Source: Sulfidibacter corallicola
GTDB lineage: Bacteria; Acidobacteriota; Holophagae; Acanthopleuribacterales; Acanthopleuribacteraceae
Assembly (NCBI RefSeq): GCF_017498545.1
Contig: NZ_CP071793.1
Coordinates: 124,001 to 188,000, forward strand
Reading direction: 5' to 3'
Length of the DNA: 64,000 bases
Made by a program: the position numbers and the translations under genes
Notes under the pieces: generated by a model
Database searches by the model: none
What the model was told of the DNA's origin: nothing
What the model saw: the letters and a program-made list of their open reading frames with translations, nothing else
Part shown: piece by piece, positions 14,013 to 54,372 of the stretch
How positions within the stretch are numbered: the first letter of the stretch is position 1
How the letters are laid out: each line of letters opens with the position of its first letter

Positions 14013-14213
14013 GGAGCAGACCTCACAGAAGCATCGTATCGGAACGAGTTGGGATTGGTGATGGGCTTGTTCGTTCGATTTCGAAGTGCACGGTGTGTCG
14101 ATCGGGTAGACCCATGCCGTTTGGACGGGGGGCCAAGTCGTCCGGCACGCTCGGTGTTCGAAACCCTTGGGTTTGAAGAGTATGGAGCCCCCAGGGCAGG
14201 GGCCCCGGTTGGA

Positions 14214-35390: not shown

Positions 35391-35866
35391 GATCGTTTTT
35401 TCTCAAATCAATCCGTGCTTCCTTTGTGAAAAAACAAATTCCCGATAAAGAAATTGCTCTATTACAATCAAGAGGTATCTAGCTGATACTGTGCCTTTGT
35501 TTGTACAACTGAAGTCACTATTGTTGCATTTTGATAATGATGCTTTGTATGTTGTTGTTTTCAAAACGCATCAGCTTTATTACTGAATTTTATATTTTAA
35601 AGAATATATCCGATATCCTACTACCTTATCAAGGTTAAACTGCGTCCGGGCGCTTGAGCCCGAAAGAACTGTCGCCGCACGTAAAAACAATCGCAACCAC
35701 CATATAGGCGCCTTGTGCCTTACTTGGGAAGAGTTGTTTTTTCAAACGCTTCCCGCTCAAGAACACTTTCACCTTTGTCTTTTTGCCTTCCCTAGTAAAT
35801 GACAAGATATGCGCCCGTCGCGCGGGCCCCACCTGATTGGTCTCGATCCTGGGTGCGGAACCCGAA
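35391..35866. other. Spacer spanning a sharp composition change
   Basis: The first 240 nt are very AT-rich and continue region 2; from about 35640 the sequence becomes GC-rich. The change probably marks the edge of the conjugative element or of an older insertion. A short hairpin GGGC-GCTTGA-GCCC lies near 35650. A 107-codon minus-strand frame (35635-35958) crosses the structured leader and has no ribosome binding site, so I do not call it. No att-like direct repeat is evident by eye. Confidence 0.45.
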
Positions 35867-35975
35867 GTGGGGCAAGCCTCGCTTCGCTGTTCCGGCTTGC
35901 CCCACCTCGAAACCCGCCCCCGTGTTCCGCCCAAATCAGGGAGGCCCGCTCTCGGCAACCTCCCTCATCGGGAGG
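35867..35975 (+). promoter_or_regulatory. Structured 5' leader, copy A
   Basis: Hairpin 1 has perfect 12-bp arms (35867-35878 and 35894-35905, GTGGGGCAAGCC/GGCTTGCCCCAC) and a 15-nt loop. A conserved CCGCCCAAATCAGG follows. Then come three competing segments: GGGAGG at 35939-35944, CCTCCC at 35959-35964 and the Shine-Dalgarno GGGAGG at 35970-35975. CCTCCC can pair with either GGGAGG, so the ribosome site can be open or closed. The same layout with compensating base changes lies before the gene at 52815. It acts on the methyltransferase-helicase start at 35981. Confidence 0.6.
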
Positions 35976-35980
35976 AACAC

Positions 35981-38900: not shown

Positions 38901-40618
38901 TGTACCGCGAAACGACAGGTGGCCAAATTGTGTTCTCGGACATGACAGAGGCGCAACAGGCCATCAAGCGAGAACTCGTCGAAGCGGGCATCCCGGAGGC
39001 CGAACTGGCGATCATCAACGGCAAGACCTGTAAAACGCTGGCGCAACGTCAGAAGATTCAGGACGATTTCAACAGTGGCCACATACGGGTTGTCATCGGC
39101 GGCGTGGTTGCGAGCGAAGGCCTGGACTTGCAGAAGAACGCCGTGGCGATCCACTTCAACACGATTTGCTGGAATGCGCAGGCCATGCACCAGCGAACGG
39201 GCCGGGCGGTCCGGCAGGGGAACCCCCACCCACGCGTGTACCTCTTCTACTATTTGTTGGACGGCACGCTGGACGTGTACCGGTTCGCGACCTATCAAAA
39301 CAAAAGCCATTGGTGGGAGATGCTGCGGAAGGCGCAAACCGACAGCATTCAGGAGTCGGTGTTCAGTGAGGGGATTTCGGATGAGATGATCGCGTCGTTG
39401 GCACCCGATCCGATCGTGGCCCTGCTTGAATTGAAAAACCTTCGCCGAGAGAAAGAACTGGCCAAGCACATGAAGGACTTCACCAAGCTCCTGATTCAGA
39501 TGTTGGAGTTTATGGGACCGATCCACAAAGGCGGCGGAGCGCCGGTGTTGAGCCAGTTAGAAGAACGGATTCGGACCTTGGAATGGATTCCAGAGCATAT
39601 CGTCCAAGAAGGTCTGCGGAGGGTTTGGACCTACCACCAATTTGGCCGTGCCATTGTGCCTTCGAAAGTCGCCAACAAGGCCGAACGATGGAACAGGGCC
39701 ATCTCCAATGCACTCAAGGACTATCAACGCACGTTGGACCTTTGGGGGGAATCGATTCTGGGAACCGTGTTCGGATTGACCGTTGAGGAAAACGAGGTCG
39801 TGTTCCGCTGGCAACCCGAATTCCTGATCCCCGAGGCCTTTCGGGATCGAATTCCAGAATGCCCGGAAACCTTCATCCTGCCACAGGAAACGAAGACATC
39901 TATCACGGATCGGTTCTTGGCGAAGGGTCGTCGCATGATCGTACTGGGTGAGCCGGTTCCCGCACCATCGGACATCAAACCAGAGACCGTTATCGATGTG
40001 TATGTCCATGCCGAAGGCGAAGAAAGCTCTGATCAGAGGACAGCGCAAACTGCGGTCGAACCATCGGGGAAGGGCACTCCAGAACACCAGGTGCCCACAG
40101 AAATGGAGAAGCGTTCCACGGCTGTGGCAATCCCAAAGGCATCGGATACCGAATTGAAGGTTTCGCAACTCGATCCCGAACCTGTGACAGCGTCAGCCGG
40201 ATTCGAGCTGGCCAAGATGCCTACGGTTAAGGGCCACGAACCGGACACCCATGAATCTCTGGTTGCTTGTATCGTCTCCGAGAAACCCGAGACCCAGGCC
40301 ATGGATCAAGCAGAAGCCGAGCCGCCCGTCACAGCGCCGAAGGCTGGACCCAAAGCCCCAGCGACGACAAAATCGAAGCGGCAGATCAAAACCAAGCGAC
40401 CGAGAACCCGGAAACCCAAAGTCGCCAGCAAAAAGACCAGCGCACTGCGTACCTCGAAGGCTGGAAAAGCAGCCCAGCCGAAGCGCAAGACCAAGGTCCC
40501 CCAAGGGCAAATGCTCTTACCAGGCATGGAAGCCTACCTGACGAGTGTGGAACCCAAGATGGCCGAAGTCAAACCGATGCCCCACCAAATGGAACTCCCG
40601 CTGGCCAAGGCTGGGTAA
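35981..40618 (+). CDS. N6-adenine methyltransferase fused to SNF2-type helicase
   Basis: This is a 1545-residue protein starting at ATG 35981, with GGGAGG 5 nt upstream. Residues ~30-260 form a class I SAM-dependent methyltransferase with the SAM motif DLGAGTG (33-39) and the catalytic motif NPPF (110-113), which indicates N6-methylation of adenine. Residues ~590-1090 form an SF2/SNF2-like motor with Walker A GLGKT (~598-602), DEAH (~753-756), GLTATP (motif III) and QRTGRAVRQG (motif VI, ~1070). The last ~200 residues are a disordered Lys/Pro/Thr-rich basic tail. Large proteins of this build are typical of conjugative elements and phages, where they may protect or remodel incoming DNA. No specificity subunit or nuclease motif is visible, so a complete restriction system is not shown. 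A structured leader and a terminator flank it. Confidence 0.85.
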   Translation: MTVQFYPTKPSVAYHLGDLFSRQCTSSLESFADLGAGTGNLTRGILHQFPKAWGQPTAHLVEPVRRIDGKGHFELQSFVDQSGARLYQTTAEEFAVTYAESDMVDAVICNPPFGKRIGTTSLDELVTDIHLPQLSCFESYFLFLASQIAKTWMMFILPDSFANQEENRIMLRRLANLGWDLQDLRRLPLDACENSLVHMSLWLFKRVGPRETVFDWVDRAIGTTQAHGGPPLYRQVTEETVTSRHGALQGYLLPEKPSISSWQAFKTTNVWTPDLTIPVIKWTPEPQPIGNLWERQGCMYVLTDSGWAPANEGGYAEGLPVSKPFQKARRAHALFRAGMAYTAYTLLECLDLAALREEYGAFGFGSFLAGLEKGPAVPDPIARDLANLQMVDIAEDLLTGFEQPVQLARIGDALFDPSCLDVPQIASLAARFGEDQLLSQNRKTLDEALESHQIPLSQLKLRAAWIPRSVIEKLFGLATCCDGYYYSPRKKEPILTALYSGVVAYLNYGRGGTRIKEGYQDIYELACQEFASWANVWARPEATHLRRQLHLHYLATKTGSTNVLARLGSSQPSVPPHWYQKEDVPFMLSGGLLAWDVGLGKTFGAILAAVSHGSKAVIVVPLAVLSKWAKEVRLFFPNLPFRVLGFRKSKRDSTKYVRNTDDMEQQVRDSFFNPTIRIILTTYERWAALTLDPQERIRADKQDALDCYGTSDKETMKKQRAAFVQHAAERNYHFGGLFKFTDLPLNNLLLIVDEAHNYKSLYAMPTGGWGESLVMAGGCGESKRARDLKMKADLIREAGGKVLGLTATPVTNSVAEAFNMLRLFYPDALAKRGIRSVQAFIDSFCTIAPICTVKLNGQAVTGNTITGFTNLNELQSIWQEAMIARTANDAKLKLPEVEETVIRIEPKGDLALYIDDQKRQLAESLSQKPSDSDTEVPHLFTVMARLNAVAEYPGLCDVGSNPKMTRMVDQLMQLYRETTGGQIVFSDMTEAQQAIKRELVEAGIPEAELAIINGKTCKTLAQRQKIQDDFNSGHIRVVIGGVVASEGLDLQKNAVAIHFNTICWNAQAMHQRTGRAVRQGNPHPRVYLFYYLLDGTLDVYRFATYQNKSHWWEMLRKAQTDSIQESVFSEGISDEMIASLAPDPIVALLELKNLRREKELAKHMKDFTKLLIQMLEFMGPIHKGGGAPVLSQLEERIRTLEWIPEHIVQEGLRRVWTYHQFGRAIVPSKVANKAERWNRAISNALKDYQRTLDLWGESILGTVFGLTVEENEVVFRWQPEFLIPEAFRDRIPECPETFILPQETKTSITDRFLAKGRRMIVLGEPVPAPSDIKPETVIDVYVHAEGEESSDQRTAQTAVEPSGKGTPEHQVPTEMEKRSTAVAIPKASDTELKVSQLDPEPVTASAGFELAKMPTVKGHEPDTHESLVACIVSEKPETQAMDQAEAEPPVTAPKAGPKAPATTKSKRQIKTKRPRTRKPKVASKKTSALRTSKAGKAAQPKRKTKVPQGQMLLPGMEAYLTSVEPKMAEVKPMPHQMELPLAKAG

Positions 40619-40998: not shown

Positions 40999-42234
40999 CT
41001 ACAACCACCGAAGGCGATCAATGGTCACGGTCCCCTGGGCGTTCTGGAAATGAACGTCATTTTGGTCGGTCCAACGCGAGCCCATGCAGGCTTTGATTCG
41101 TTTCTTTTCTGCATCATCCAGCTCATTAAAAAACCGACGAAACGTCACACCCGGCGATTGGCGCCGCAAGTGGGCACCAAGGCTCTGAACCAGGTCGAGA
41201 TCCTTCTCCCGCAAAATCAACAATTCCAAGGCGATCACATGTTCAGCCGACGAAGCGTTTGATCCATGAAAGGAGGACCACAGGTAGTACCCATTCAGAA
41301 TGTGGTGGATCTTGCGGATGCTGCGCACATTGTAGGCCTCCAAGCCCTTGCTGACCCGCTGCACCACATCGGCTTTTCCGCTCGGGGGCTCCTCGCTTGG
41401 CCAAAGCTCGTCGACTCGGGCGGCGAGCAGGGCATTGTGCTCGTCGCGGGAAAGGAGGGGAAGGTTCACCGTCGCGTGAAAAATCTTGCGAAAGTAATTG
41501 AACGCGTAGCTCTCGTCCATCCCTTCGTAGCGCTTGACGATGAACCGCTTGGCCACTTCGGTATCGATGCCCGCAATGAAGATCACCCGAGCCCTTGGGA
41601 TGACGAACAGGTTCTTCAATGCCTCCAGCATTTCGAGGGCCATGTCTGGCAGGCAGCGGTCCAGATCGTCCAGGAAAACCACCAGCGGGTATTTCCCATG
41701 ACTGGTTTTGTCCACGATGAGGCCGGTCAGTTTCTCAAAGTCTTCTTTCAACAAAGCCACCGGGTCTTCGTAGTCCCGTTGTCCCAAGGCCTTTTCAATT
41801 TCGCTGTAGATATCTGCCATGTTCTTGAAATTGATGGCATTGCGACTGACTACGCGGGCAAAGGCGTCGACACCGCTGGTGAAAAAGGACAGAGAAAACA
41901 CCTTGAAGTCACTCCAGTCCAACGGCCATTTGGATTGGGTCTTTTGACAAAGAGAAGCGAGGAAGCACAAGACCACGTCCTCAGCCCGCTCGTACTCCCA
42001 GGGGTTGAACCATACCGTGGGGAACCCGTCTTTCGTCAATCGCGCCTGAAGTGCCATCATTAGTGAGGTCTTGCCGCTGCCCCAGGTACCGTTGATCGAC
42101 AGGCAAAAGGGGGCTTCAATTTTGTGGCAAACCAGTCTGTGGAGCTGTTTCAGGAACGGGCTTTTTTCGAGCGAGGTCAGCTCCCCTTCGTCAATCAGCG
42201 GATCGAGTGGACGCAACGGCTTGTAGGTGGACAT
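40999..42234 (-). CDS. KAP-family P-loop NTPase
   Basis: This is a 411-residue protein from ATG 42234, with GAGG 4 nt upstream. Walker A is GTWGSGKT (residues 49-56), and Walker B is in LVVFLDDLDRCLP (around residues 180-192) with the tandem acidic residues typical of the KAP family. FNPWEYERAEDVVLCFL, downstream of Walker A, is also a KAP hallmark. The transmembrane insertion seen in many KAP NTPases is not obvious, so this looks like a soluble form. KAP NTPases are STAND-like ATPases repeatedly found in bacterial conflict and defence islands. It is divergent from the NACHT-FGE target gene at 42516 and separated from it by 281 nt that must hold both promoters. A joint defence role with the DGR is inference. 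Confidence 0.85.
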   Translation of the reverse strand: MSTYKPLRPLDPLIDEGELTSLEKSPFLKQLHRLVCHKIEAPFCLSINGTWGSGKTSLMMALQARLTKDGFPTVWFNPWEYERAEDVVLCFLASLCQKTQSKWPLDWSDFKVFSLSFFTSGVDAFARVVSRNAINFKNMADIYSEIEKALGQRDYEDPVALLKEDFEKLTGLIVDKTSHGKYPLVVFLDDLDRCLPDMALEMLEALKNLFVIPRARVIFIAGIDTEVAKRFIVKRYEGMDESYAFNYFRKIFHATVNLPLLSRDEHNALLAARVDELWPSEEPPSGKADVVQRVSKGLEAYNVRSIRKIHHILNGYYLWSSFHGSNASSAEHVIALELLILREKDLDLVQSLGAHLRRQSPGVTFRRFFNELDDAEKKRIKACMGSRWTDQNDVHFQNAQGTVTIDRLRWL

Positions 42235-42515: not shown

Positions 42516-45167
42516 GTGGCAAATGACGGCTGGAAAACTTGGTTTGGCTGGGGTCGGCGTGCCTTTGTCAAGCATCCAGCCTGGCAACGATACCGCGAAG
42601 GTTTGGAAGTCCAGTGTGCCCACATGCGGAATGCTGCCCTACCCCTGGATGGATCTGGGACCAGCGCCACCTTTGACGAATTGTATGTCCCAATGAACAT
42701 GAAGGATGTGTCCAACGATCCCGGCGCTTCCCTCAGAGTTGTGCTTACCAAAGCTGACGTTGCCGCTCACATCGCATCCTCTGATCCCGAGCGGGTCGAT
42801 CGGATTAAAACGGCATATGGCGACGCATTTGAGACTGTCATGCACCGGGATCTGGAAGAACAACTGGACACCAACCCCAACTTCCGCATCCCCGGACGTA
42901 CCGACCAATTGTTCGAAAATCCAGTGGATGACCTTCTGAAAGAGCCGAAACCTTTGACCCTCATCGCCGGCGAGGCGGGCAGTGGCAAGTCCACCTTTAT
43001 GCGGCACGCCGTCAGAACCACCCTGGAAACAGGCCGGGTGTATCCCATTTTTGCCGAATTAAAAGATGCGGCCGTGTGGTTGAAGAACCAAAAAAATCCC
43101 GACCTGCTGACCTGGGTGTCTGAGCAGGTTTTTGGCGGATCGATTGCGGTGCTCGAACTCGAACGACAGGCAAAGGACAAGTCGTTGTGGCTCTTTTTAG
43201 ATGGGCTGGACGAAATCCTAGACGACCACCGCTGTTTTCGCGCGGCAGAGATGATCAGAATCTGGGCGGGCACTTCGCCCGGTTCCGGCTGCGCGACTTT
43301 TGTGACCATGCGGCCCCATTTGTGGATGAGGCAGCCGACGATGGCCATTTTCCAGGATGCCCGAAAAGTGCGGCTTTGCCCATTGGGCAATCAAGGGCAA
43401 CAGGCCTATTTCGAGAGGTTGTTGCGGGCTCAAGGGAAACCCGAAGAGCAGGCGTCGCGCCTGTGGCGCGACATGAAAAGCTTATCGTTTCTAGACGCCG
43501 ATTTTTGCGGGAACCCGCTGTTGCTCTCGATTTTGGCGTTGGTGGATGGTGGCAAACAACGTCTTCCCAACCGGATGGCGGAACTCTATCAGCGCGCCAT
43601 CACGCAATTGTTGCAGCAGCGTTTTGGCGAAGACCGCCGGGCCGAGACCGGATTGACCAAGGAGGTCGCCCGCGGGTGTCTGCTAAGGGTGGCCCGGACC
43701 ATGTTCGATCGCGGTGTCGCGGGCGGCATTTGCGAAACCATGTTATTGAACCATTGGGTGTCCGAAGAAACCTTCGATCGCTCTTCGGAACAGGATGAAG
43801 CCCGCAAGAGTTGGCGCCAACAGCTACGGGCCCTTGCCTGCTACTCGGGTTTGTTGATTTTGGAGGGTGACCCACTTCACTACCGCTTCGCCCACGGCCG
43901 GTTTCGCGAATTTTTGGCCGGCCAAAGCCTGGCCAGCGCCCCGATCAAGGCTTGGCATGGAAAATTGACCTTGGAGAGCCATGCACAGATCGTGGTTTTC
44001 ACTATTGGGCACCTTTGGCTGACGGGCGACACCGACAAGGCCTACTACCTGATTCAAATGCTGAAGAGCACCGAACAGGGTCAGCCGTCCGGCCTGGACA
44101 CGGCCATGCGCGGGCTTTGTGAGCGCGCGACGGAAACGACGGTTCGAGAGGGCGTGGACCGGGAAATTAAAGAGCAGGTAACGACTCTTTTGGGGGACGG
44201 CGAGGTTCCTCTGCCGATGCGGAAAAAGCTGGCGTTCAGTTTGGGCCGGTTGGGCGACCGACGGCTCGACCCCCAATCCGAGACGAGGTGGGTCACGATA
44301 AAAAAAGGATCGTTCACCATGGGTGACAACCAAGGTTTTGAGGATGAAAAACCCGAGCATTCGGTCGTGGTAGCGGAGGACTTTTGGATCGGGACCTATC
44401 CGGTCACCAATCAGGAATACAACCGTTTCATCCTAGATCAGGGATACCACAACTCGGATTGGTGGAACGATGGCTGGTGGTGGCGGGAAATGAGTGAGGC
44501 AGCTTTTCAAGCCTGGCTCGCAAAAGAGCGGGAAACCATCGCCGAGCTGTATGGTTTTGAACCCGATCCACAATATTTTCGACCGGATGAGAAGCCCCTC
44601 TACTGGGACCATCCTTACTTTAAAGGTCCCAACCAACCCGTGGTGGGCGTCAATTGGTTCGAGGCCACCGCCTATTGCAACTGGCTCACGGCCAGATTGG
44701 AAGAGGAGCCACCCTCCTGGTGGCAAACGGGCATGCAGGTGCGACTCCCCAGTGAGACACAATGGGAATACGTGGCCAAAGGGCAAGAGGGACGGCCCTA
44801 TCCCTGGGGCAGCCCATCACCCAGTCCGGATCGCGCCAATTACGGTGTCGTGGAACGAGGCACCATGCCGGTAGGCATCTACCCCAAGGGAGCCACGCCG
44901 GAGGGCGTTTACGACATGGCGGGCAATGTCTGGGAATGGTGTGTCGACCATTATGTCAACGATATTTACAAAAAACGCAATGTGTTAACAACAGAAATGC
45001 CTGTAATTATTGAAGATAGCGCCGTGCGCGTGCTGCGCGGCGGCGCTTGGCTCGACGTCGCTCCCAGGCTGCGGTCGTCCTCCCGCGACAGGTACCATGC
45101 TGCCAGCCGCGACTTCAGCGTCGGCTTTCGGTGTGTGTTGTGGTTGCCGCCCGAGCCCGGTTCTTGA
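42516..45167 (+). CDS. NACHT NTPase-FGE fusion, DGR target 1
   Basis: This is an 883-residue protein from GTG 42516, with GGAGG 4-5 nt upstream. Residues 1-145 are an unrecognised N-terminal domain, possibly the effector. A NACHT-type STAND NTPase follows, with Walker A GEAGSGKST (~152-160) and Walker B LFLDGLDE (~225-232), then a helical region to ~585. Residues ~590-880 are a formylglycine-generating-enzyme-like (FGE/SUMF1, C-type lectin fold) domain: FTMG, YPVTNQEYNRF, VVGVNWFEATAYCNWL, RLPSETQWEY, DMAGNVWEW, VLRGGAW and GFRCVL. The last 47 residues include the DGR variable repeat. No signal peptide is present, so it acts in the cytoplasm. In DGR targets this fold is a ligand-binding scaffold rather than an enzyme. 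By analogy to NLRs, the variable face should sense a ligand and the NACHT should oligomerise. Confidence 0.9.
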   Translation: MANDGWKTWFGWGRRAFVKHPAWQRYREGLEVQCAHMRNAALPLDGSGTSATFDELYVPMNMKDVSNDPGASLRVVLTKADVAAHIASSDPERVDRIKTAYGDAFETVMHRDLEEQLDTNPNFRIPGRTDQLFENPVDDLLKEPKPLTLIAGEAGSGKSTFMRHAVRTTLETGRVYPIFAELKDAAVWLKNQKNPDLLTWVSEQVFGGSIAVLELERQAKDKSLWLFLDGLDEILDDHRCFRAAEMIRIWAGTSPGSGCATFVTMRPHLWMRQPTMAIFQDARKVRLCPLGNQGQQAYFERLLRAQGKPEEQASRLWRDMKSLSFLDADFCGNPLLLSILALVDGGKQRLPNRMAELYQRAITQLLQQRFGEDRRAETGLTKEVARGCLLRVARTMFDRGVAGGICETMLLNHWVSEETFDRSSEQDEARKSWRQQLRALACYSGLLILEGDPLHYRFAHGRFREFLAGQSLASAPIKAWHGKLTLESHAQIVVFTIGHLWLTGDTDKAYYLIQMLKSTEQGQPSGLDTAMRGLCERATETTVREGVDREIKEQVTTLLGDGEVPLPMRKKLAFSLGRLGDRRLDPQSETRWVTIKKGSFTMGDNQGFEDEKPEHSVVVAEDFWIGTYPVTNQEYNRFILDQGYHNSDWWNDGWWWREMSEAAFQAWLAKERETIAELYGFEPDPQYFRPDEKPLYWDHPYFKGPNQPVVGVNWFEATAYCNWLTARLEEEPPSWWQTGMQVRLPSETQWEYVAKGQEGRPYPWGSPSPSPDRANYGVVERGTMPVGIYPKGATPEGVYDMAGNVWEWCVDHYVNDIYKKRNVLTTEMPVIIEDSAVRVLRGGAWLDVAPRLRSSSRDRYHAASRDFSVGFRCVLWLPPEPGS
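45024..45140 (+). repeat. DGR variable repeat VR1
   Basis: This 117-nt core aligns without gaps to the template repeat at 46534-46650. Inside it, 16 of the 25 template adenines are changed (to G, T or C), and only one other base differs (C to T at 45128, silent). Just 3', the two bases 45141-45142 (TG, against GT in the template) mark the IMH/IMH* difference, and the shared TTGCCGCCCGA follows. It codes for the exposed end of the FGE domain. Confidence 0.95.
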
Positions 45168-45219
45168 TTTTTGGCTTTTGGTGTTTGTAGGGTGGGCTTC
45201 CCCATGCGGCCCGAGCCCA

Positions 45220-45258
45220 GCATGCGGGTGTCACGCCGCAACAGGCCGCATGCGCTTT
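45220..45258 (+). terminator. Inverted repeat after VR1, terminator-like
   Basis: Perfect 8-bp arms GCATGCGG (45220-45227) and CCGCATGC (45246-45253) with an 18-nt loop are followed by GCTTTT. It lies about 80 nt beyond VR1, so it may end the target 1 transcript. Hairpins downstream of VRs also aid retrohoming in known DGRs, but those are usually closer. Confidence 0.45.
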
Positions 45259-45342
45259 TGACAAAATGACAAACCGATTGACACTGTTCGTGAGTGCCGT
45301 AGCTCTTTGTCACTTTGACCGAAACCGTTTTGTCAAATGCGA

Positions 45343-46338
45343 TCAGAAAAGCCAAGCTCCGGCCGTGGATACCAGGGACCGATTTTGTTGCGCTTGGGAC
45401 ATGCTCCGTAGACGTCTCCCTCGCTTGCGGAATCGTCGCACTGCCTTTTTGCCCAAGTCGATCCCGGACGGATGGACTCGATAACCCAAGAACGTGTGGC
45501 GTTGATGGCTGGGCCGGACGTGGGCCCTCTCTTCATGGAATTGCAGGCCGCGTTCCCGCCACAGCCATTGCCGAAGCTCATTTCGCCAATCGGCCAACGT
45601 GCTGCGGGCTTCGGCGAACAGCACAAAATCATCCATGTAGCGCAGGTAACCCTGGCAGCCCAGATCTCGCTTGATGAAATGATCGAGGCCGTTCAAGTAG
45701 AAATTCCCCCACCATTGACTGGTGAGATTCCCAATTGGGAGTCCCCACGGCACTTCCTTCGACAAATGACTGCCTTCAAGACCAAAGAATTGCTGGACCC
45801 GAGGCTGTCGATAAAAAGCAGCGCCCGAAGCCAAGATTTCCCGTAGAAACGGCGCCCAGCGGTCGTCGCGAAGAAAGGGCAGCAGCAGATCCAACAAAAT
45901 GGCGTGATCGATTCGGGCGTAGTACCCACGCAGGTCCAAATGAAGCAGCCATGGGTACCGGGTTTGAAATTCGCGGAAACGCAGCACGGCGCGGTGGCTG
46001 CCCCGACCCGGTAGGCAGGCATAGGTGTCGTCGATGAGTTTCCGGTTGAAAAAGGGGCCCAGTGCGCGGTAACACGCCATGTGGACCACGCGATCTCTCA
46101 CCGAGGCCCTCGCAATCAGCCGTGGTTTGGGATCTTGGATGGTCATCAGCCGATAGGGGCCGTGTCGATAGTGGTCGTCTTGTAGCTGGTCGGCTAGTCG
46201 GACCAAGTAGCGGTCTTGTTCCAGTTCGAAGGCGGCCACATCCGGCCGACGACGTTTCCCCCGTCGAACATCGCGCCAGGCTTGATATAGGCAGGGAAAC
46301 GCCATGGTTTCTTCAAATCGAACCGCCAGAGATTTCAA
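45343..46338 (-). CDS. DGR reverse transcriptase
   Basis: This is a 331-residue reverse transcriptase from TTG 46338, or 320 residues from ATG 46305, which I consider equally likely since neither has a strong ribosome site. Motifs in order are RLIARASVRDRVVHMA, PGRGSHRAVL, LHLDLRGYYARIDH (first catalytic Asp), GLPIGNLTSQWWGNFYLN (the GLPIGN..SQ form of motif 4 that typifies DGR enzymes) and RYMDDFVLF (catalytic Asp pair, ~233-236), then a short thumb with TFLGYRVH. There is no maturase, endonuclease or RNase H domain, which fits DGR enzymes and not group II introns. It reverse-transcribes TR RNA, misreading adenines, and the cDNA replaces VR sequence in the targets. It is the last gene of the avd-TR-RT cassette. 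Confidence 0.93.
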   Translation of the reverse strand: MKSLAVRFEETMAFPCLYQAWRDVRRGKRRRPDVAAFELEQDRYLVRLADQLQDDHYRHGPYRLMTIQDPKPRLIARASVRDRVVHMACYRALGPFFNRKLIDDTYACLPGRGSHRAVLRFREFQTRYPWLLHLDLRGYYARIDHAILLDLLLPFLRDDRWAPFLREILASGAAFYRQPRVQQFFGLEGSHLSKEVPWGLPIGNLTSQWWGNFYLNGLDHFIKRDLGCQGYLRYMDDFVLFAEARSTLADWRNELRQWLWRERGLQFHEERAHVRPSHQRHTFLGYRVHPSGIDLGKKAVRRFRKRGRRLRSMSQAQQNRSLVSTAGAWLF

Positions 46339-46533
46339 GGCGTCTGCCGGTGCTCTGGGGATCTGCTTTCAGGCTGATTGAAGGGAAAAAGCCCACTCGG
46401 ACGGTGGGCCTGCGGGAACACAGGCTTACTGGAACGAGTGGGCAGGGTGGTTTCAGACACCTTGGCGGTGGTCTGGGATCCTGTCTGCACGGTTCTCCAG
46501 GTTCGGGCGGGAAGCGTGTTCGGGCGGCAACAC

Positions 46534-46650
46534 CAACACACACCGGAAGCCGATGTTGTTGTTGCGGTTGGCTGCATGGTTCCTGTTGCGGTAGGACGAC
46601 CGCAGCCTGGTTGCGTCGTTGTGCCAAGCGCCGCCGCGTAGCACGCGCAC
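46534..46650 (-). repeat. DGR template repeat (TR)
   Basis: The 117-nt template lies between avd and the reverse transcriptase on their coding strand. It is rich in AAC codons exactly where the targets vary; read in the target frame it gives NDATRL, YRNRNHAANRNNN and IGFRC. There are 25 adenines from the CTA codon to the ATC codon. VR1 differs at 16 and VR2 at 15 of them. The flanking TR sequence GTGTTGCCGCCCGA (IMH*) differs from both VRs (TGGTTGCCGCCCGA). Confidence 0.95.
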
Positions 46651-46678
46651 GGCGTTTTCGACAAAACCCCTGACCCCA

Positions 46679-47005
46679 TCATACGGCCTGAAGCGATTTG
46701 AGCCAACCACCTAGTTGCCGACCCAGACTGTCACATTGACGGCACCCGTAAGCGTATTGGCGATCGTCGATCATCTGCTTTTCCAAGGCCAAGCGGAGGT
46801 AGAGCCGAACCAAAGCGAGGGCTCGGTCGGCCTCGACCACGTTTTCCTGTCGATCAAAGCCTTTCAAGGCGAGGGTGATGGCTTCCAATAGAGCTGCACT
46901 GCTTTGGCCAAGCTTTTGGGCGACCAATTCCCCATGGTATGTCATCCGCTGATCCAACCAAAGAAAAAGATCAAAGCTGATCCCGAACAAAGGCGCCTCG
47001 TTCAA
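46679..47005 (-). CDS. avd: Avd-like DGR accessory protein
   Basis: This is a 108-residue all-helical protein from TTG 47005, with GGAGG about 8 nt upstream. The pattern FDLFLWLDQRM, LLEAITLALKG, ADRALALVRLYLRLALEKQMI and CDSLGRQLGGWLKS matches the four-helix-bundle accessory variability determinant, a positively charged pentamer in studied DGRs that binds the reverse transcriptase and TR RNA and is needed for cDNA priming. It starts by overlapping the stop of an upstream truncated frame (TTGA) and ends 29 nt before the TR core, the standard avd-TR-RT order. The identification rests on pattern, size and position. Confidence 0.85.
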   Translation of the reverse strand: MNEAPLFGISFDLFLWLDQRMTYHGELVAQKLGQSSAALLEAITLALKGFDRQENVVEADRALALVRLYLRLALEKQMIDDRQYAYGCRQCDSLGRQLGGWLKSLQAV

Positions 47006-47197
47006 CGGTTGCGCCTCCGCTCCACGCGTTTGATCAGGGCTGAGAATTTGGGCAGTAATTCCGTCTCCAACTTGGTGGCCAGGGGCGATGGCTCAGGCTC
47101 CAAGTAGAGCAAGGCCGTCGCCTGGCAGATGTGACTGCGTGCCTGATTGAAGAACCGCGCCTTCTCACTGCGGTGAAAACTGTGGCAGCCTTCTGAG
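47002..47197 (-). pseudogene. Truncated four-helix-bundle (Avd-like) gene remnant
   Basis: A frame with no start of its own runs out of the IS end near 47198 and stops at 47002, overlapping the avd start as TTGA. The residual ~63 residues (EKARFFNQARSHICQATALLYL, then TELLPKFSALIKRVERR) resemble the C-terminal half of four-helix-bundle/S23-type proteins, the same superfamily as Avd. The IS3-family insertion apparently removed the N-terminal half and probably the original promoter of the cassette. The assignment is tentative because of the short length. Confidence 0.55.
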
Positions 47198-47236
47198 TAT
47201 AGTGGACCCCGTTGTCTAGACCAAAAGGTGCCAAAC

Positions 47237-48025
47237 TTAAGCTTCGGTGGCGTGGTACACCTCGGAGGGTTTCTGGTTGCCGAGCGATTGATGTGGCCGC
47301 TCGTTGTTGTAGTGTTCAAAGTACCTGTGAAGCCCATGGTACAGTTCCAGGCCGTTTTCGTAACTGTGCAGGTAGATGTGCTCGTATTTCACCGAACGCC
47401 ACAATCGTTCCACAAACACGTTGTCCAGTGCGCGTCCCTTGCCGTCCATGCTGATCTGAACCTCTGCCTCCTGAAGGATTTCGGTGAATTTCGGGCTCGT
47501 GAATTGCGCGCCTTGATCGGTGTTGAATATCGAAGGTTTCTTGTTTTGCAGCGCGCGTCTCAGAACCTCGCGGCAAAAGGCTCCATCCAGCGTGTTGGAG
47601 ATTTCCCAAGCCACCACGTACCGGCTGTACCAGTCGATAATCACCGTCAGGTACATGTAGCCTCGCCGCATCGGCACATAGGTGATGTCGGTGCTCCAAA
47701 CGTGGTTGGGATGGGTGATGGTCAGGTCTCGCAGTAAGTAAGGATACACGCGATGGGCCGGGTTGGCCGCGCTGGTGCGAGGCTTGGGATATACGGCCTC
47801 CAGGGCCATCAACCGCATGAGCCGTTGAATCCGTTTCCGGTTGACCGCATACCCTCGATCTCGTAGGAAGGCGGCCATGCGTCGGCTGCCGAAGTAGGGG
47901 AAATCCAGGTAAATACGATCGATCTCCGACATCAAGGCCAGGTTTTCGGGCCTCTCGGGTCGCGGCTCGTAGTAGTACGAGGCTCGCGATAACCCAAGCA
48001 AGGCGCACTGCCGGCGAATGCTCAA
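47237..48025 (-). CDS. IS3-family transposase OrfB (DDE integrase)
   Basis: This frame gives 262 residues from a weak TTG at 48025; coding-like sequence (NLNPCIEEKRLCIEP) extends upstream to the A9 run, so the active enzyme is probably an OrfAB fusion. It has the HTH_21-like N-terminal part (LGLSRASYYYEP, FGSRRMAAFLRDRG) and an rve catalytic core with DDE residues in WSTDITYVP, FNTDQGAQFTS and DNVFVERLW, ending YNNERPHQSLGNQKPSEVY. It catalyses cut-and-copy transposition at the IS ends. The core looks intact. Confidence 0.92.
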   Translation of the reverse strand: MSIRRQCALLGLSRASYYYEPRPERPENLALMSEIDRIYLDFPYFGSRRMAAFLRDRGYAVNRKRIQRLMRLMALEAVYPKPRTSAANPAHRVYPYLLRDLTITHPNHVWSTDITYVPMRRGYMYLTVIIDWYSRYVVAWEISNTLDGAFCREVLRRALQNKKPSIFNTDQGAQFTSPKFTEILQEAEVQISMDGKGRALDNVFVERLWRSVKYEHIYLHSYENGLELYHGLHRYFEHYNNERPHQSLGNQKPSEVYHATEA

Positions 48026-48062
48026 CCGGCGGTGATGGGGTTCGATGCACAGCCGTTTCTCC

Positions 48063-48356
48063 TCAATGCAGGGATTCAGATTTTTTTTTGAGCCAGTCGA
48101 GCTCCACCTGGAGACGACCGATTTGTTCGTAAAGCTTGCCGATTTCCGGTGATTCGCCGGCGGGTTTTCGAGGAACCTTCCCGCTCTCGAACACCTCCGG
48201 CAGGGACTCGATCACCTGCTTTTTCCAGCGGTTGATCAGGGTCGGGTGGATCCCGTACTGGGCTGACAGTTCCGAGACCGTTTTGATGCCGCGGATCGCT
48301 TCCAAAGCCACCCGGGACTTGAACTTGGGATCGTGATTGTTGCGCTTCCTAGCCAA
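48063..48356 (-). CDS. IS3-family transposase OrfA
   Basis: This 97-residue protein starts at ATG 48356 and has an HTH (FKSRVALEAIRGIKTVSELSAQYGIHPTLINRWKKQ) that binds the IS ends, then a leucine-zipper-like helix (KLYEQIGRLQVELDWLKKK). It ends just after nine A residues (48081-48089 in the opposite strand reading). OrfB lies in the frame reached by +1 or -2 shifting; the usual -1 frame meets a stop at once. Loss of one A on A9 transcripts would fuse the two genes. Confidence 0.9.
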   Translation of the reverse strand: MARKRNNHDPKFKSRVALEAIRGIKTVSELSAQYGIHPTLINRWKKQVIESLPEVFESGKVPRKPAGESPEIGKLYEQIGRLQVELDWLKKKSESLH

Positions 48357-48423
48357 AACTCGGTTTACCTCTCTCCGGCTCCGCAGTAGCTGTTGGCCGA
48401 GGGGGATATAAACGGACGAACGA

Positions 48424-48532
48424 CCATGGTGTTAGGGTGGACCCCTGGCGCACCATGGACATCTTGATGGCGCAGCTTGCTGGGCCGTCAAGGTGTCCCC
48501 TGGGGTACGAGGGGTGGGCCCCAACACTATGG
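48424..48532. repeat. Imperfect 22-bp inverted repeats flanking ~65 bp
   Basis: The segment at 48424-48445 (starting CCATGGTGTTAGGG) and the reverse complement of 48511-48532 (starting CCATAGTGTTGGGG) match at about 17 of 22 positions. The stretch lies just outside the IS3 orfA and contains no gene. It could be a small non-autonomous element or the relic of another insertion. The rest of 48357-48610 shows nothing else that I can support. Confidence 0.35.
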
Positions 48533-48610
48533 TGGAGCGCCCGCTTTATGCTCCCCCTTGGCTCTCTGCCCCGCTGTTTACCCGAGGTCCCACCTTAACG
48601 CTTTTGAAGC

Positions 48611-49006
48611 TTAGCTCCTGGTCTCGATTATGGGGTCCATTATAGAGATCGCGAGCATGCCGGCCTGCAAGGCCGCGGTAGCCGGATCGTTGGCGCCTCG
48701 GACTTTTGCCAGTTCCAAGTAAATTTCGCGCCCAATTTCAAAGACGCGGAGATTGCGAACCGAATAATTCTTATCGATGGCCTGGGCTGCATCCTCTCCG
48801 ATGACCTCAGAGGTGAGCTTTTGGAAACTCTTTGCTTTTTGGCGGGCTGCCTTCGCTTGGCCACTGCTCAGCGGCAGTTCGTTTTTATCAATGTAGTGTC
48901 GACCTTTGATCTTCCGGGACGGAAGTTTGCCCGTTTGGATCAGATAGCGAAGCTGGCGCTCTGATTTCCCTAGGTACCTGGCTGCTTCTTGAAGCGTGAG
49001 TTGCAT
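48611..49006 (-). CDS. Excisionase/MerR-like HTH protein
   Basis: I choose ATG 49006 (131 residues): the in-frame GTG at 49048 lies inside a large palindrome that looks like an operator. Residues 1-45 are a helix-turn-helix 17/excisionase-type winged helix (LTLQEAARYLGKSERQLRYLIQTG, GRHYIDKNELP). The C-terminal ~80 residues are helical and unrecognised (VRNLRVFEIGREIYLELAKVRG, AALQAGMLAISIM). The gene is 304 nt downstream of target 2 on the same strand but has its own regulatory palindrome, so it is probably transcribed separately and autoregulated. It could control the DGR or the conjugative element, which is inference only. Confidence 0.75.
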   Translation of the reverse strand: MQLTLQEAARYLGKSERQLRYLIQTGKLPSRKIKGRHYIDKNELPLSSGQAKAARQKAKSFQKLTSEVIGEDAAQAIDKNYSVRNLRVFEIGREIYLELAKVRGANDPATAALQAGMLAISIMDPIIETRS

Positions 49007-49025
49007 GGTGTTCCCCGGTAGGTTG

Positions 49026-49080
49026 AAGCTCCCAGCGTTGTCAGTCACTTGTTAACAAGCGACTGACAACGCTTCAGCTT
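49026..49080. promoter_or_regulatory. 55-bp palindrome before the HTH gene
   Basis: The centre is GTTAAC within CTTGTTAACAAG. Outside it lie GCGTTGTCAGTC/GACTGACAACGC and then AAGCT/AGCTT. Only one mismatched pair breaks the inner 38 bp. A possible -10 (TATGAT, 49092-49087, minus strand) sits directly upstream. The position between this -10 and ATG 49006 suits an operator for the HTH protein. The stretch from there to the end of target 2 (49093-49352) is AT-rich and without a gene. Confidence 0.6.
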
Positions 49081-49352
49081 TACAACATCATAAAACAGAG
49101 CGAGATGAAGAAGAACCAAACAATTTATTTGATTTCTTTGAGACAGCGCAAGGACAAAGATTTGTCATTCTCGCTCGATTCCGGGAAAAGGGCAACCCGC
49201 TTTGCGAAGCCAAAGCTTGAACTATTTACAAATGGTCCGCTTAGGTGCCTGAATCGGGTCACCGTATTGTCAAAAGCAAAATGACACATGACAAAATTGG
49301 GAACAGACGGTGAAAGTGCTGGCGGGATCACACAACGTCCAAAAATCAAAGG

Positions 49353-52300
49353 TCAAGAACCGAGCTCGGGCGGCAACCACAACACACACCGGAAGCCGAT
49401 GACGTTGCCGCGGCGGGCCGCACGGTTCCTGAAGCGGTAGGACGACCGCAGCCTGGTCGCGCCGCCGCGCCAAGCGCCGCCGCGTAGCACGCGCACGGTG
49501 CTATCTTCAATAATAACAGGCGTTTCCGCTTTTGACACGTTGCGTTTATTGTAAATGTCGCTGACAAAATTGTCGACACACCATTCCCAAACGTTGCCCG
49601 CCATGTCAAACAGCTTTGTCGGTGTGGCGCCCCTGGGATAGATCCCCACTGGCGTGGGTCCACTCTGAGAACCGTCAAAGTTGGCCATTTCTTCGGTCGG
49701 AGGGTCGTCACCCCAAGGATAGGGACGCCCCTCTTTGCCCTTTGCGGCGTACTCCCACTGGGCTTCGCTGGGAAGCCCCACCGCCATACTCGACGGCCAC
49801 CATAAAGGTCGGTTGTTTTTGAAATGGGCTTCCAGCCAACGACAATAGGCGCAGGCCTCGTACCAGTTCACACCCACCACCGGCAGATTGTGGTCCTTTT
49901 TCTCCGGGCGGTTTCCGGCTCCCCAAAACCGAGGTGCCTTACTGGGTCGAAACCAATCTTCTGCCCAAAAGTCGTATTCGGGGTTCTGCTGCTTCTGCTT
50001 CTCGAGCCATGCCTCAAACCGCCCTTCCTTCTCCGATTGAAGCCAATCCCACCCCGCATCGCCCCACCAGCGACTGTCTTCGTACCCGCCCTTTCTGACG
50101 AACGCCAGGTATTCTATCTCCGTGACCGGATATTTGCCCATCCAGAAGGGTTGTGTCACGCGCACGGTTTGGGATTCTTGCTCCCCTCCCATCAGGAACT
50201 GACCCGGTTCGATTTCGACCCACCGGTCGCGCTTGTGCATCCCCAAACGAGGATCACCGACAACCCCCAACGCCGCCACCGCCTCGATCCGATCCTGAAC
50301 GCACATTTCTTCGGGGTTCTCGGTAACGGCTGATACCTCGCGGCGCACGCGCGTGGCCAATTCGGCATCCACCGGTTTCCCCGCGGCCTCCAAATCGGCC
50401 ACGGCATTCATGGCCAGCGCAACGCCTCGGCCATGTCTCGACCAATCGATGGGTTCCTTGTCCCCGCCGGCCAACAGCACCTTGACCACATTAGAAAACA
50501 AAGGATATTGGCTTCGCCCCAGATCCGAAAGTGCCAGCATGATGGGCTCATGCCACCAGTCCTTCAAAATGTTTTTCTCGAAAAATGCGGCAATCTCACC
50601 TCTCTCAAACTTTTCCACCAGGCACAATGCGGCCAGGTACTCGCGGTACCCATGATGGCTAAACCGCAATTGGGTTTGATGGCCCTCGGCGCCATCTCGC
50701 CGGTACAAGAGACCGCTGCGGACCTCCAACCATTGGAGCAATTTGCGCTTTTTCTGGTCTCTGGCGCCGCGGGACAAGTTCTTGCTCTCCTCATCCGCTT
50801 CGATCCGCTCCTCCAAACGATCCAAGACCGACTGTTCGCCGAAGATCACCACCTCTTTCTCGTGATGTTCCGAATCCTGCTTGTCTAGGTGGAGACCCCA
50901 AGCCAAAACCTTCAACGTTTCCATCACAACCCTTTGTTCCCAATCCTCTAGATTCCGCGTCACCCTTCGATCTCGGTCTTTTTTGGAAAGGAACAATTCC
51001 AAGGCTTGCTGATACAATTCCACCCGCATTTCCGGCATTTTTCCGGAGGAAAGGCGGATGATTGCCAGCAAGGTCAGCACATTGGGGTTGCTTGCCATGT
51101 CCTGAATGTGGTCGTGCGCTTCGATCTCCGACGCAACTTTAGCCGAAATTCCCACTTCCAGAGGGCTTCCCATCGCTTGGTAAATGGGTTCTACCGCGGC
51201 AAACCACTTGTTCAAAAAGGCCCGACACTGGGTCACATCCATTTCTTTGACCCTGAATGCAGTGAAACGGGCCCGTTCCTTGTGTAGGAAGCGACGCTGA
51301 AATGCTCGGGTGCGGCACGTCAACATCACCAGACAATCACGGTGGCAGCATTTGGCAAGAAAGGCTTCAACGGCCCAACAGACCCTTTGGCGTGCTTCCT
51401 TGGTGGACACTTCGTCCAGGCCATCCACAAAAAGAGCCGCTTGGTTTTCCTTGAAGAACGTTTCGATGCCGTGAGGGATGCGGGCCTCTTCTTCCAGCAG
51501 CCGCAACACTTCGCTTCCTCTGGGTGTCTTGTCGGATTCCAGGTGTTCAAGTACCTGGCTGCACGTAAGGAAAAACGGAATGGGCAGCTCGCCGTTGTAG
51601 GTCGGAACCTTCGCCCAGAGTTGGTGAGCCTTTTCTTGATCCTGACCGTTAAGATGGCCGGCTGCGGTCCGTGCCGCCAAATAGCGCAGCAACGTGGTCT
51701 TGCCTGAGCCGGGGTCGCCGATCACCACCAGCCTGGGGCCATGTTCCAGCAAAGAGAGTACATCGGCGGTGTTCGGTTCGTGGGCCATGGTCTCTTCACG
51801 CCCGGCCCAACCTTGCTGCTCCCGATTGATTTCGCGGTGCTGGGCCTCCAGCCGAACAAAAATCTCACGCAATTCAATGGTCTCCACCCGAGCACCGTCA
51901 CCAATTCCGGGAAGGCGAATGCACGAGGTATCCGCATAGAGTCGGGTCAGGTAATCGCGCAACCCCGGGTCGAGCGGATCGGTGACAAAAGCGGCTGCCA
52001 GCGCATCGAGGTGGTCCAAGAAGGATGGCACTCGATGGCCTCGAAGCCGCGTCACACAGCCTGGTTGCCGGGATTCAAGCTCGCCCAGCAGACGCAAGAG
52101 TTCGCTGCAACGGATGTGGAACTGAGCCATCTCGGCCAGACTCACAGGCTCCGGGGGTACTGCTTCCGCTTGAAGAAAAATGTGCAACCGGGGAAGGCGA
52201 TTCTGTTGAGATAAAGCTAACGTGGCAGACATTTTGAAAAGTTGGGTGAGATGGATCAGCGGTTGGGTGGGGCCGTCGTTCACATCGCAAAAAATAAAAA

Positions 52301-52472
52301 TACCGACCAGGTCTTCCATACCAGTGGATGGAACTGGCACCAGGTTGAAGGATGGGTTCTCTTGAGAGCCCTTCACATCATGAAAATCCTTCATGTCCTT
52401 GCGCAATTGCAATTCGGGGAGTGCTTCAAACGCGGGGGACGTCAAAAGGGAGATCTGTAGTTCGGTCGTCAC
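49353..52472 (-). CDS. NACHT NTPase-FGE fusion, DGR target 2
   Basis: This is a 1039-residue cytoplasmic protein from GTG 52472, with GGAGGGG just upstream. Residues 1-235 are an unrecognised N-terminal domain, unrelated by eye to that of target 1 and a candidate effector. A NACHT NTPase follows, with Walker A GDPGSGKTT (~250-258) and Walker B ALFVDGLDE (~340-348), plus sensor-like LTCRTRAFQRR, then a helical arm to ~745. Residues ~749-1036 are the FGE/C-type-lectin-fold domain: FLMGGE, YPVTEIEYLAF, VVGVNWYEACAYCRWLE, GLPSEAQWEYAAKG, DMAGNVWEW, VLRGGAW and GFRCVLW. The variable repeat covers ~993-1031. It is convergent with target 1 across the RT cassette and shares its terminal PPE-GS residues and stop context. 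It is likely an NLR-like sensor with a diversifiable tip. Confidence 0.9.
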   Translation of the reverse strand: MTTELQISLLTSPAFEALPELQLRKDMKDFHDVKGSQENPSFNLVPVPSTGMEDLVGIFIFCDVNDGPTQPLIHLTQLFKMSATLALSQQNRLPRLHIFLQAEAVPPEPVSLAEMAQFHIRCSELLRLLGELESRQPGCVTRLRGHRVPSFLDHLDALAAAFVTDPLDPGLRDYLTRLYADTSCIRLPGIGDGARVETIELREIFVRLEAQHREINREQQGWAGREETMAHEPNTADVLSLLEHGPRLVVIGDPGSGKTTLLRYLAARTAAGHLNGQDQEKAHQLWAKVPTYNGELPIPFFLTCSQVLEHLESDKTPRGSEVLRLLEEEARIPHGIETFFKENQAALFVDGLDEVSTKEARQRVCWAVEAFLAKCCHRDCLVMLTCRTRAFQRRFLHKERARFTAFRVKEMDVTQCRAFLNKWFAAVEPIYQAMGSPLEVGISAKVASEIEAHDHIQDMASNPNVLTLLAIIRLSSGKMPEMRVELYQQALELFLSKKDRDRRVTRNLEDWEQRVVMETLKVLAWGLHLDKQDSEHHEKEVVIFGEQSVLDRLEERIEADEESKNLSRGARDQKKRKLLQWLEVRSGLLYRRDGAEGHQTQLRFSHHGYREYLAALCLVEKFERGEIAAFFEKNILKDWWHEPIMLALSDLGRSQYPLFSNVVKVLLAGGDKEPIDWSRHGRGVALAMNAVADLEAAGKPVDAELATRVRREVSAVTENPEEMCVQDRIEAVAALGVVGDPRLGMHKRDRWVEIEPGQFLMGGEQESQTVRVTQPFWMGKYPVTEIEYLAFVRKGGYEDSRWWGDAGWDWLQSEKEGRFEAWLEKQKQQNPEYDFWAEDWFRPSKAPRFWGAGNRPEKKDHNLPVVGVNWYEACAYCRWLEAHFKNNRPLWWPSSMAVGLPSEAQWEYAAKGKEGRPYPWGDDPPTEEMANFDGSQSGPTPVGIYPRGATPTKLFDMAGNVWEWCVDNFVSDIYNKRNVSKAETPVIIEDSTVRVLRGGAWRGGATRLRSSYRFRNRAARRGNVIGFRCVLWLPPELGS
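49380..49496 (-). repeat. DGR variable repeat VR2
   Basis: This 117-nt core aligns without gaps to the TR. Fifteen template adenines are substituted, and no non-adenine position differs. VR1 and VR2 differ from each other at many of the same codons, so the two targets carry independent variants from one template. The IMH that follows (TGGTTGCCGCCCGAGC) is the same as after VR1; here it continues into the palindrome CCGAGCTCGG. Confidence 0.95.
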
Positions 52473-53976: not shown

Positions 53977-54372
53977 ATGCTGTCGCGTTATGCCCTGATC
54001 GGCAAACAACTCACGATGATCAAAGGCAAAGTGACCGTCTTGGGCGGCCTGCTCTACGTGTTTACTTTTTTCGGGTGGTCGGCGTTGCTGCTCACGTTCG
54101 CCAGTGAGTTCCACCTTCTCGCCGACTGGGCGCTTTGGCAAATCGGGCTCATGATTTTGGCTGCCACCTGGATCACCACGCGCTTGATCGCACGCGTCCT
54201 GTTCCACCCGATGCCGCCCGCACCCACGCCCCGCAGCACGCCGAACACGGTCGAGCCCGGCATCCTACTCCGTATGCTGGCGTCACGACGCTACCAAACC
54301 TTGGGCCGCCTGACACCGGGTCAGCCCTTGGCACCCGTCATCTTCGAGGGAGTTCACCATGAATTCGATTAA
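53977..54372 (+). CDS. VirB3/TraL-like inner-membrane protein
   Basis: This is a 131-residue protein from ATG 53977, with GGGAGA upstream; an in-frame ATG at 53959 overlaps the previous gene and is less likely. Two close membrane helices (VTVLGGLLYVFTFFGWSALLLTF and LWQIGLMILAATWITTRLI) are followed by a short cytoplasmic tail. A small two-helix protein directly before, and overlapping by 14 nt, the VirB4/TraC ATPase is the usual place and shape of VirB3/TraL, which anchors the ATPase at the inner-membrane complex. The assignment rests on topology and neighbourhood, not on sequence motifs. Confidence 0.6.
   Translation: MLSRYALIGKQLTMIKGKVTVLGGLLYVFTFFGWSALLLTFASEFHLLADWALWQIGLMILAATWITTRLIARVLFHPMPPAPTPRSTPNTVEPGILLRMLASRRYQTLGRLTPGQPLAPVIFEGVHHEFD

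Follow-up and report, generated by a model that had tools for sequence, protein, structure and literature searches.

In this study we describe a diversity-generating retroelement (DGR) at positions 42516-52472 of a 64-kb window of the Sulfidibacter corallicola genome. The genome is a single contig of 11,786,365 bases, and the window, by which we mean the whole stretch of DNA analysed, occupies C1:124001-188000. The locus comprises, in order, target 1 (+), the reverse transcriptase (RT, -), the template repeat (TR, -), avd (-), a gene into which an IS3 element has inserted, and finally target 2 (-), with the RT gene convergent with target 1 and on the same strand as target 2, avd and the TR (Table 1). 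The original prediction for this DNA listed an RT, an Avd-like gene, a TR and two variable repeats (VRs) at the 3' ends of two genes, and all of these parts could be re-derived from the sequence. Its description of the DGR as complete holds for the RT, TR, Avd and VRs, but not for a conserved helix-turn-helix (HTH) gene, which is split here by the IS3 element. This insertion, a second DGR in the same genome and repeat arrays 3' of both targets were absent from that prediction.

Table 1. Coordinates of the DGR features in the window, with the evidence for each (HMM, hidden Markov model).
Feature	Position	Strand	Evidence and details
Target 1, 883 aa	42516..45167	+	NACHT residues 148-305 (PF05729 30.1 bits); C-terminal FGE/C-type-lectin 589-874 (PF03781 169.5 bits)
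VR1 core, 120 nt	45021..45140	+	versus TR: 16 A differences and 1 C>T
7-bp array from target 1 stop codon	45161..45188	+	TTCTTGA TTTTTGG CTTTTGG TGTTTGT; chain of 4 YTTGN units
DGR-type RT, 331 aa	45343..46338	-	PF00078 51.8 bits; LPIGNLTSQ and YMDD in alignment
TR core	46534..46653	-	repeat comparison; 120 nt, 25 adenines
Avd, 108 aa from TTG start	46679..47005	-	PF22296 bAvd 42.6 bits, cut-off 40
3' piece of HTH/four-helix gene	47002..47197	-	HMM of 13 relatives, positions 122-185, E 2.2e-20
IS3-family element, 1447 bp	47198..48644	-	NF033516 277 bits; terminal inverted repeats; GAG duplication 47195-47197 and 48645-48647
5' piece of HTH gene, ATG probably at 49006	48645..49048	-	PF12728 HTH_17 38.9 bits; relatives' HMM positions 1-116, E 1.8e-37
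7-bp array at target 2 stop codon	49339..49359	-	TTCTTGA CCTTTGA TTTTTGG; chain of 3 units
VR2 core, 120 nt	49380..49499	-	versus TR: 15 A differences and 1 edge G>A
Target 2, 1039 aa	49353..52472	-	NACHT/STAND NTPase (PF05729 50.8 bits); C-terminal FGE 749-1030 (PF03781 158.9 bits)

The differences between the TR and the VRs fall almost only at TR adenines (16/17 in the VR1 core and 15/16 in the VR2 core), which makes a deliberate mutation of the receptor tips likely. The hypergeometric probability of this restriction is about 1e-12 for VR1 (16/17 at A) and 7e-13 for VR2 (15/15, with the edge base excluded). Nine of the 25 TR adenines are altered in both VRs, 13 in one and three in neither; 22 lie at first or second codon positions, and adenine changes can create a stop in none of the TR codons. 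The counts given in the original prediction were recovered, namely 16 of 25 adenines plus one C-to-T change in VR1 and, within the 117 nt considered there, 15 adenines and nothing else in VR2, the extra G>A being the first base of the 120-nt core and falling outside that stretch. The 13 variable residues claimed likewise agree with our translation count, in which 13 codons of the same stretch differ among TR, VR1 and VR2. Only three copies matching the TR sequence are found in the 11.79-Mb genome, the TR itself, VR1 and VR2. Directly 3' of the core there are further non-A differences from the TR, most of them common to both VRs, as would be given by a pair of initiation of mutagenic homing elements (IMH and IMH*, terms used as in PMC4372165).

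The window RT groups with the RTs of other TR/VR loci in our tree and contains the SQ motif that marks DGR RTs. The one close RT, that of locus L014, is only 52% identical, and the nearest named relative is from an Acidobacteriota metagenome-assembled genome. The Avd protein matches an HMM of its relatives at 3e-39, a model that includes the window sequence itself, and reaches 43.2 bits against NCBIfam DivGenRetAVD, below the cut-off of 80 of that family.

Both targets exceed the Pfam cut-offs for NACHT (PF05729, cut-off 26.7) and FGE (PF03781), and in both the VR sits inside a C-terminal FGE domain fused to the NACHT NTPase. The FGE parts of the two proteins are 55% identical and the NACHT parts about 24%, and at the nucleotide level the FGE ends form an inverted repeat of 276 nt (84%). 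A structure model of the target 2 FGE domain has a pLDDT of 89.3 and a pTM of 0.90. That one TR serves two NACHT-FGE targets, as had been proposed, is borne out, and two convergent targets flank the TR and RT in 14 relatives of the same RT clade as well. The further proposal of two different N-terminal domains stands for target 2, where about 240 residues precede the NTPase and match only themselves among 7999 scored candidates, but not for target 1, whose P-loop is preceded by a mere 147 or so residues; these leave too little space for a known effector, and no effector domain is recognised in this protein. The NCBIfam model of the antiphage NACHT protein EruA gives weak matches to the targets (28.2 and 50.6 bits; cut-off 1000).

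In most relatives, an intact gene between target and avd encodes an HTH_17 protein of about 185-230 residues. The window holds the first ~120 and the last 63 residues of this protein, which aligned as separate pieces on either side of the IS3 element, and the stop of the 3' piece overlaps the avd start. The genome contains ten full-length copies of the IS3 element, this one counted, and because one of the others is 100% identical the insertion is probably young. No empty insertion site was found in sister genomes, the RT itself being present in only 3/61 relatives. The predicted fold of the HTH homologue in L025 has four helices between residues 81 and 183 (pLDDT 89.1, pTM 0.56). That this C-terminal half descends from a duplicated Avd was not accepted as proven, since the profile probability is 0.6% and helical bundles reach middling Z by chance. 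The interrupted gene is likely a helper or accessory gene of the DGR.

A genome scan with the RT alignment, from which 80 of 332 confirmed loci were taken, allowed us to place the window locus among its relatives. A rapidly built tree covered 76 RTs, with six short sequences omitted and support by SH-aLRT only; in it the window RT pairs with that of L014 (97) within a clade of 20 rows (99) whose hosts are Acidobacteriota, Myxococcota, Pseudomonadota and Planctomycetota. The HTH gene is found in 16/20 rows of this clade, counting the split copy of the window, and in 0/56 rows outside it; the convergent receptor pair, a label assigned by hand, is found in 15/20 and 0/56. In these comparisons a single RT clade is distinguished by the HTH gene, coding for an HTH and a predicted four-helix bundle, and by the convergent pair. 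No pair was called for five rows of the clade, namely L015 (a single target found), L026 (the stretch begins at the RT), L035, L044 (FGE genes on both sides, no TR found) and L053. L042 and L086 have the convergent target only, and L055, which lies outside the tree set, has a weak HTH match (3.5e-6). Twelve of the 14 relatives with two convergent targets passed a filter of at least 70% of TR-VR differences at TR adenines; the other two, L018 and L024, have a weaker adenine share (10/16 and 12/21; 20/30 and 16/32, respectively). L021 has a TR, an RT and two VRs (19/19 and 17/18 differences at A) and no HTH or Avd matches. It could be supplied in trans, because L027 of the same bin (A14_bin-2326) has both the HTH and the Avd gene.

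Searches for the HTH gene in further genomes rarely found it. In the phylum sample it was found in 1/396 genomes, its own only, with at most eight candidates scored per genome; elsewhere it was found in 3/210, 2/28 and 5/48 genomes, several of these being loci already known. Four of the six new stretches hold an RT, a convergent pair and A-biased repeats, with differences at A of 19/19 and 16/19 in L125, 14/15 and 15/19 in L127, 10/10 twice in L128, and 17/17 and 15/15 in L129. The remaining two, L126 and L130, have HTH and FGE genes and no RT match within the stretch.

A Pfam scan of 21 targets of relatives at E 1e-4, which did not include the FGE-only partners of 338-373 aa in L017, L021, L022 and L027, found FGE in 21/21. 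Effector domains were found in 14/21 of these targets together (TIR in four, SIR2 in three, metallophosphoesterase in seven and EAD1 in one), and this domain content favours a role as immune sensors. In Magnetococcales, L018 and L020 align with each other along their length. When L020 is compared with L023, positions 8370-11260 of L020 (VR ends, HTH, avd, TR and RT) align forward and both receptor arms are inverted and exchanged. The swapped arms would be accounted for if the facing FGE/VR ends had recombined and thereby turned the cassette round; no outer flank aligned, so either the cassette or the arms may have turned in L018/L020 relative to L023.

Short tandem repeats lie directly 3' of the VRs in the window and in many other DGR loci. 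We compared 67 non-redundant 50-mers 3' of VRs with their dinucleotide shuffles, in a test that was devised after the sequences had been seen and in which relatives are not independent, with shuffles that correct for neither; the match is 0.410 versus 0.285 at distance 7 (z 17.2), 0.389 at distance 8 (z 13.3) and 0.373 at distance 15 (z 8.8). The 95% point of their own shuffles was exceeded by 38/67 flanks after VRs versus 2/67 after TRs. Stretches upstream of VRs and 400 other open reading frame (ORF) ends showed no excess at 7 or 8 and small excesses elsewhere, with a maximum z of 3.8 at distance 9. The repeat unit varies by lineage, for example CCCTTTTA in cyanobacteria, and the effect is weaker in viral DGR loci (8/45, z 2.7 and 4.4). 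Chains of at least two YTTG-type units were found in 18/27 clade targets versus 1/65 others. They are weaker in stretches outside this first count (at least two units in 9/19, at least three in 3/19), including the eight A/B ends of L125, L127, L128 and L129 (four and one, respectively). The 14 ends outside the first 27, eight of them new and six from L018, L024 and L044, gave a z of 6.8 at distance 7 and only 0.7 at distance 8. The idea that the arrays are peculiar to the HTH clade was rejected, as a motif-free test detected this 7/8-bp periodicity in DGR targets outside it as well (z 9.7 and 11.0). Because the periodicity extends to these targets, a link between the HTH protein and the array is a hypothesis only. 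We found no report of tandem repeats 3' of VRs in the DGR papers searched, though one may exist in others; the cis elements described in the available parts of PMC3240598, PMC8144416 and PMC4372165 are hairpins and no tandem repeats. As a separate observation, GC-rich inverted repeats were spotted, by eye only, farther out in some relatives.

On the evidence of sequence comparison, the DGR most likely rewrites the tips, formed by FGE domains, of two NACHT receptors, and these would sense invaders inside the cell. The TR RNA would be copied by the RT together with Avd, with errors at adenines, and the mutated cDNA would replace either VR. The altered FGE surface would then bind foreign ligands and trigger the NACHT NTPase. 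The effector in relatives would be their TIR, SIR2 or phosphoesterase domain; since neither window target has a recognised one, these would signal via the N-terminal region of target 2 or via a partner. Less surely, the HTH protein would be a second accessory, and its interruption may lower or stop diversification at present.

Several observations weigh against this explanation. The HTH gene is broken and the IS3 element could be polar on avd, the TR and the RT, though read-through is possible because the transposase genes point the same way as these genes. In the window, folding of 60 nt 3' of each VR gave no hairpin in excess of shuffled sequence (z -0.21 and 0.46), and the DGR of phage BPP-1 needs a hairpin 3' of its VR (Guo et al. 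2011, PMC3240598); ten stretches were folded in all and none fell below z -2. The RT is patchy, being present in 3/61 of the nearest genomes with its own counted, and the locus is known here from one strain's genome alone. No effector domain was found in the window targets by Pfam at E 0.1 or, at E 1e-4, in 7/21 targets of relatives. NACHT is listed for only 14 of these 21 targets, in some of the 14 below cut-off, and one more target has NPHP3_N.

It is possible, though less likely than not, that diversification of the receptors ended when the IS3 element disrupted the HTH gene, the putative accessory, and that the VRs are now frozen. The element with its 3-bp duplication lies inside a gene kept in most of the RT clade, its identity to another genome copy indicates a young insertion, and degenerate, transposon-hit DGR loci are known in Thiohalocapsa (PMC10907252). 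Against such stalling, the RT, Avd and TR are intact, and non-A drift amounts to one base per VR core, so the freezing would have to be recent. L021 moreover keeps clean VRs without adjoining HTH and Avd genes, perhaps served in trans by L027. It appears unlikely that the receptors work outside defence, in kin recognition or in the sensing of self or metabolites. No ligand is known and no effector domain is recognised in either window target, and Dore et al. call the antigen-sensor role of their own proteins untested (PMC10907252), but TIR and SIR2 N-termini occur in clade members and the KAP NTPase gene next to target 1 matches a defence candidate. That the TR-VR differences arose by duplication and ordinary selection or gene conversion, without mutagenic reverse transcription, is very improbable: the two targets do have duplicated FGE ends, but the restriction to adenines refutes this unless such a spectrum can arise otherwise, the RT and Avd lie beside the TR, and the adenine pattern is repeated in relatives.

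The view that the DGR rewrites the tips of invader sensors can be extended, with considerable reserve, to a joint reading of the locus. Here the 7/8-bp array, which the template lacks, would mark the recipients of cellular DGRs, and in the NACHT-receptor clade a DNA-binding HTH protein with an Avd-like bundle would read the array and bring RT and Avd to both receptor genes. In this genome the IS3 element would then have stopped such delivery and frozen one repertoire, and the facing VRs would let the cassette flip between its two receptors. We regard this combination as improbable.

Comparisons with known systems refer to the parts of the cited articles that were accessible. Paired NACHT/STAND-FGE targets of DGRs are a kind already described: Dore et al. 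2024 (PMC10907252) report DGR 6 with two STAND-FGE targets, find two targets to be common in clade 5D DGRs and propose antigen sensing, stated as untested. The Thiohalocapsa PB-PSB1 DGR 3 and DGR 6 and other clade 5D DGRs resemble the window in having two targets with a STAND/NACHT domain in the middle and a C-terminal FGE/C-lectin domain holding the VR, in their proposed role as antigen sensors and in having transposons inside the loci. In contrast to these, the window targets show no EAD8 or TIR and the insertion sequence breaks the HTH gene; in the accessible text of Dore et al. an HTH gene is described at DGR 8 in another role, and neither an HTH accessory of the window kind nor a repeat array is named. 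No description of such an accessory was found in the accessible DGR literature, where PMC10053308 names Avd, HRDC and MSL. Like the window, the Bordetella phage BPP-1 DGR (PMC3240598) has an RT, Avd, a TR and a VR. Its cis element, directly 3' of the VR, is a GC-rich hairpin, whereas the candidate element at this position in the window consists of 7-bp tandem repeats, and the 60 nt folded there gave no hairpin above shuffles. Avs and other bacterial NACHT anti-phage proteins have NACHT matches in common with the window, where a DGR-controlled FGE domain would be the sensor. DGR-linked conflict systems have been described by Kaur et al. 2020 (PMC7159879), and their VMAP/MoxR ternary systems also tie a DGR-diversified FGE domain to an NTP-dependent conflict system, but the window uses NACHT receptors and no MoxR or VMAP gene was identified beside the locus. 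Beyond the kind already described, the locus stands out by the natural disruption of a conserved gene that is probably an accessory, by a plan shared across its clade and by repeats on the recipient side.

The second DGR of the genome lies at about 8729-17303 of stretch L012 (G000:C1:7655000-7674500). It comprises genes for a trypsin-like peptidase, a MoxR-like AAA protein, an FGE target of 979 aa, HRDC and an RT, together with a TR and a second FGE ORF, and its TR-VR differences at A are 16/18 and 14/17. With MoxR-like AAA and trypsin-like peptidase genes beside an FGE target it has a likeness to the VMAP/MoxR systems, and it resembles the MoxR-type DGR conflict loci in the accessible text of Dore et al. 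2024; there is no vWA match at E 1e-4.

The surroundings of the window DGR contain further genes. The KAP NTPase gene adjoining target 1 (40999-42234, -) matches PADLOC PDC-S20 at 4.9e-38. Signs of an integrative and conjugative element were seen around the DGR (35837-40618 and 54359-57100 in the window; L101:5390-7135, 8323-9408 and 10023-11549), namely an SNF2-type helicase, a TraG-like P-loop protein (23.7 bits, below the cut-off of 25.8), a coupling-protein domain (22.0 bits, cut-off 20.5), a PriCT-2 primase and a tyrosine integrase (genome 196022-197548). Three very large ORFs lie at 915-8252, 8313-14012 and 14214-29456 (-): an RHS-repeat protein (2445 aa), a Big_5/carboxypeptidase-regulatory-like protein (1899 aa) and a third ORF of 5080 aa. 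The window gave no match in scans for Rfam families and tRNAs.

Bacteria offer few candidates for anticipatory, antibody-like diversification, and sensors driven by DGRs belong to these few. The window locus is a clean case, in which one template serves two receptors and a conserved gene, likely an accessory, has been knocked out naturally, so that the role of this gene is directly testable. The question of how a recipient is told from its template has so far been answered mainly by the hairpin of one phage. The 7/8-bp arrays, found after VRs and absent after TRs, are a candidate for how cellular DGRs make this distinction.

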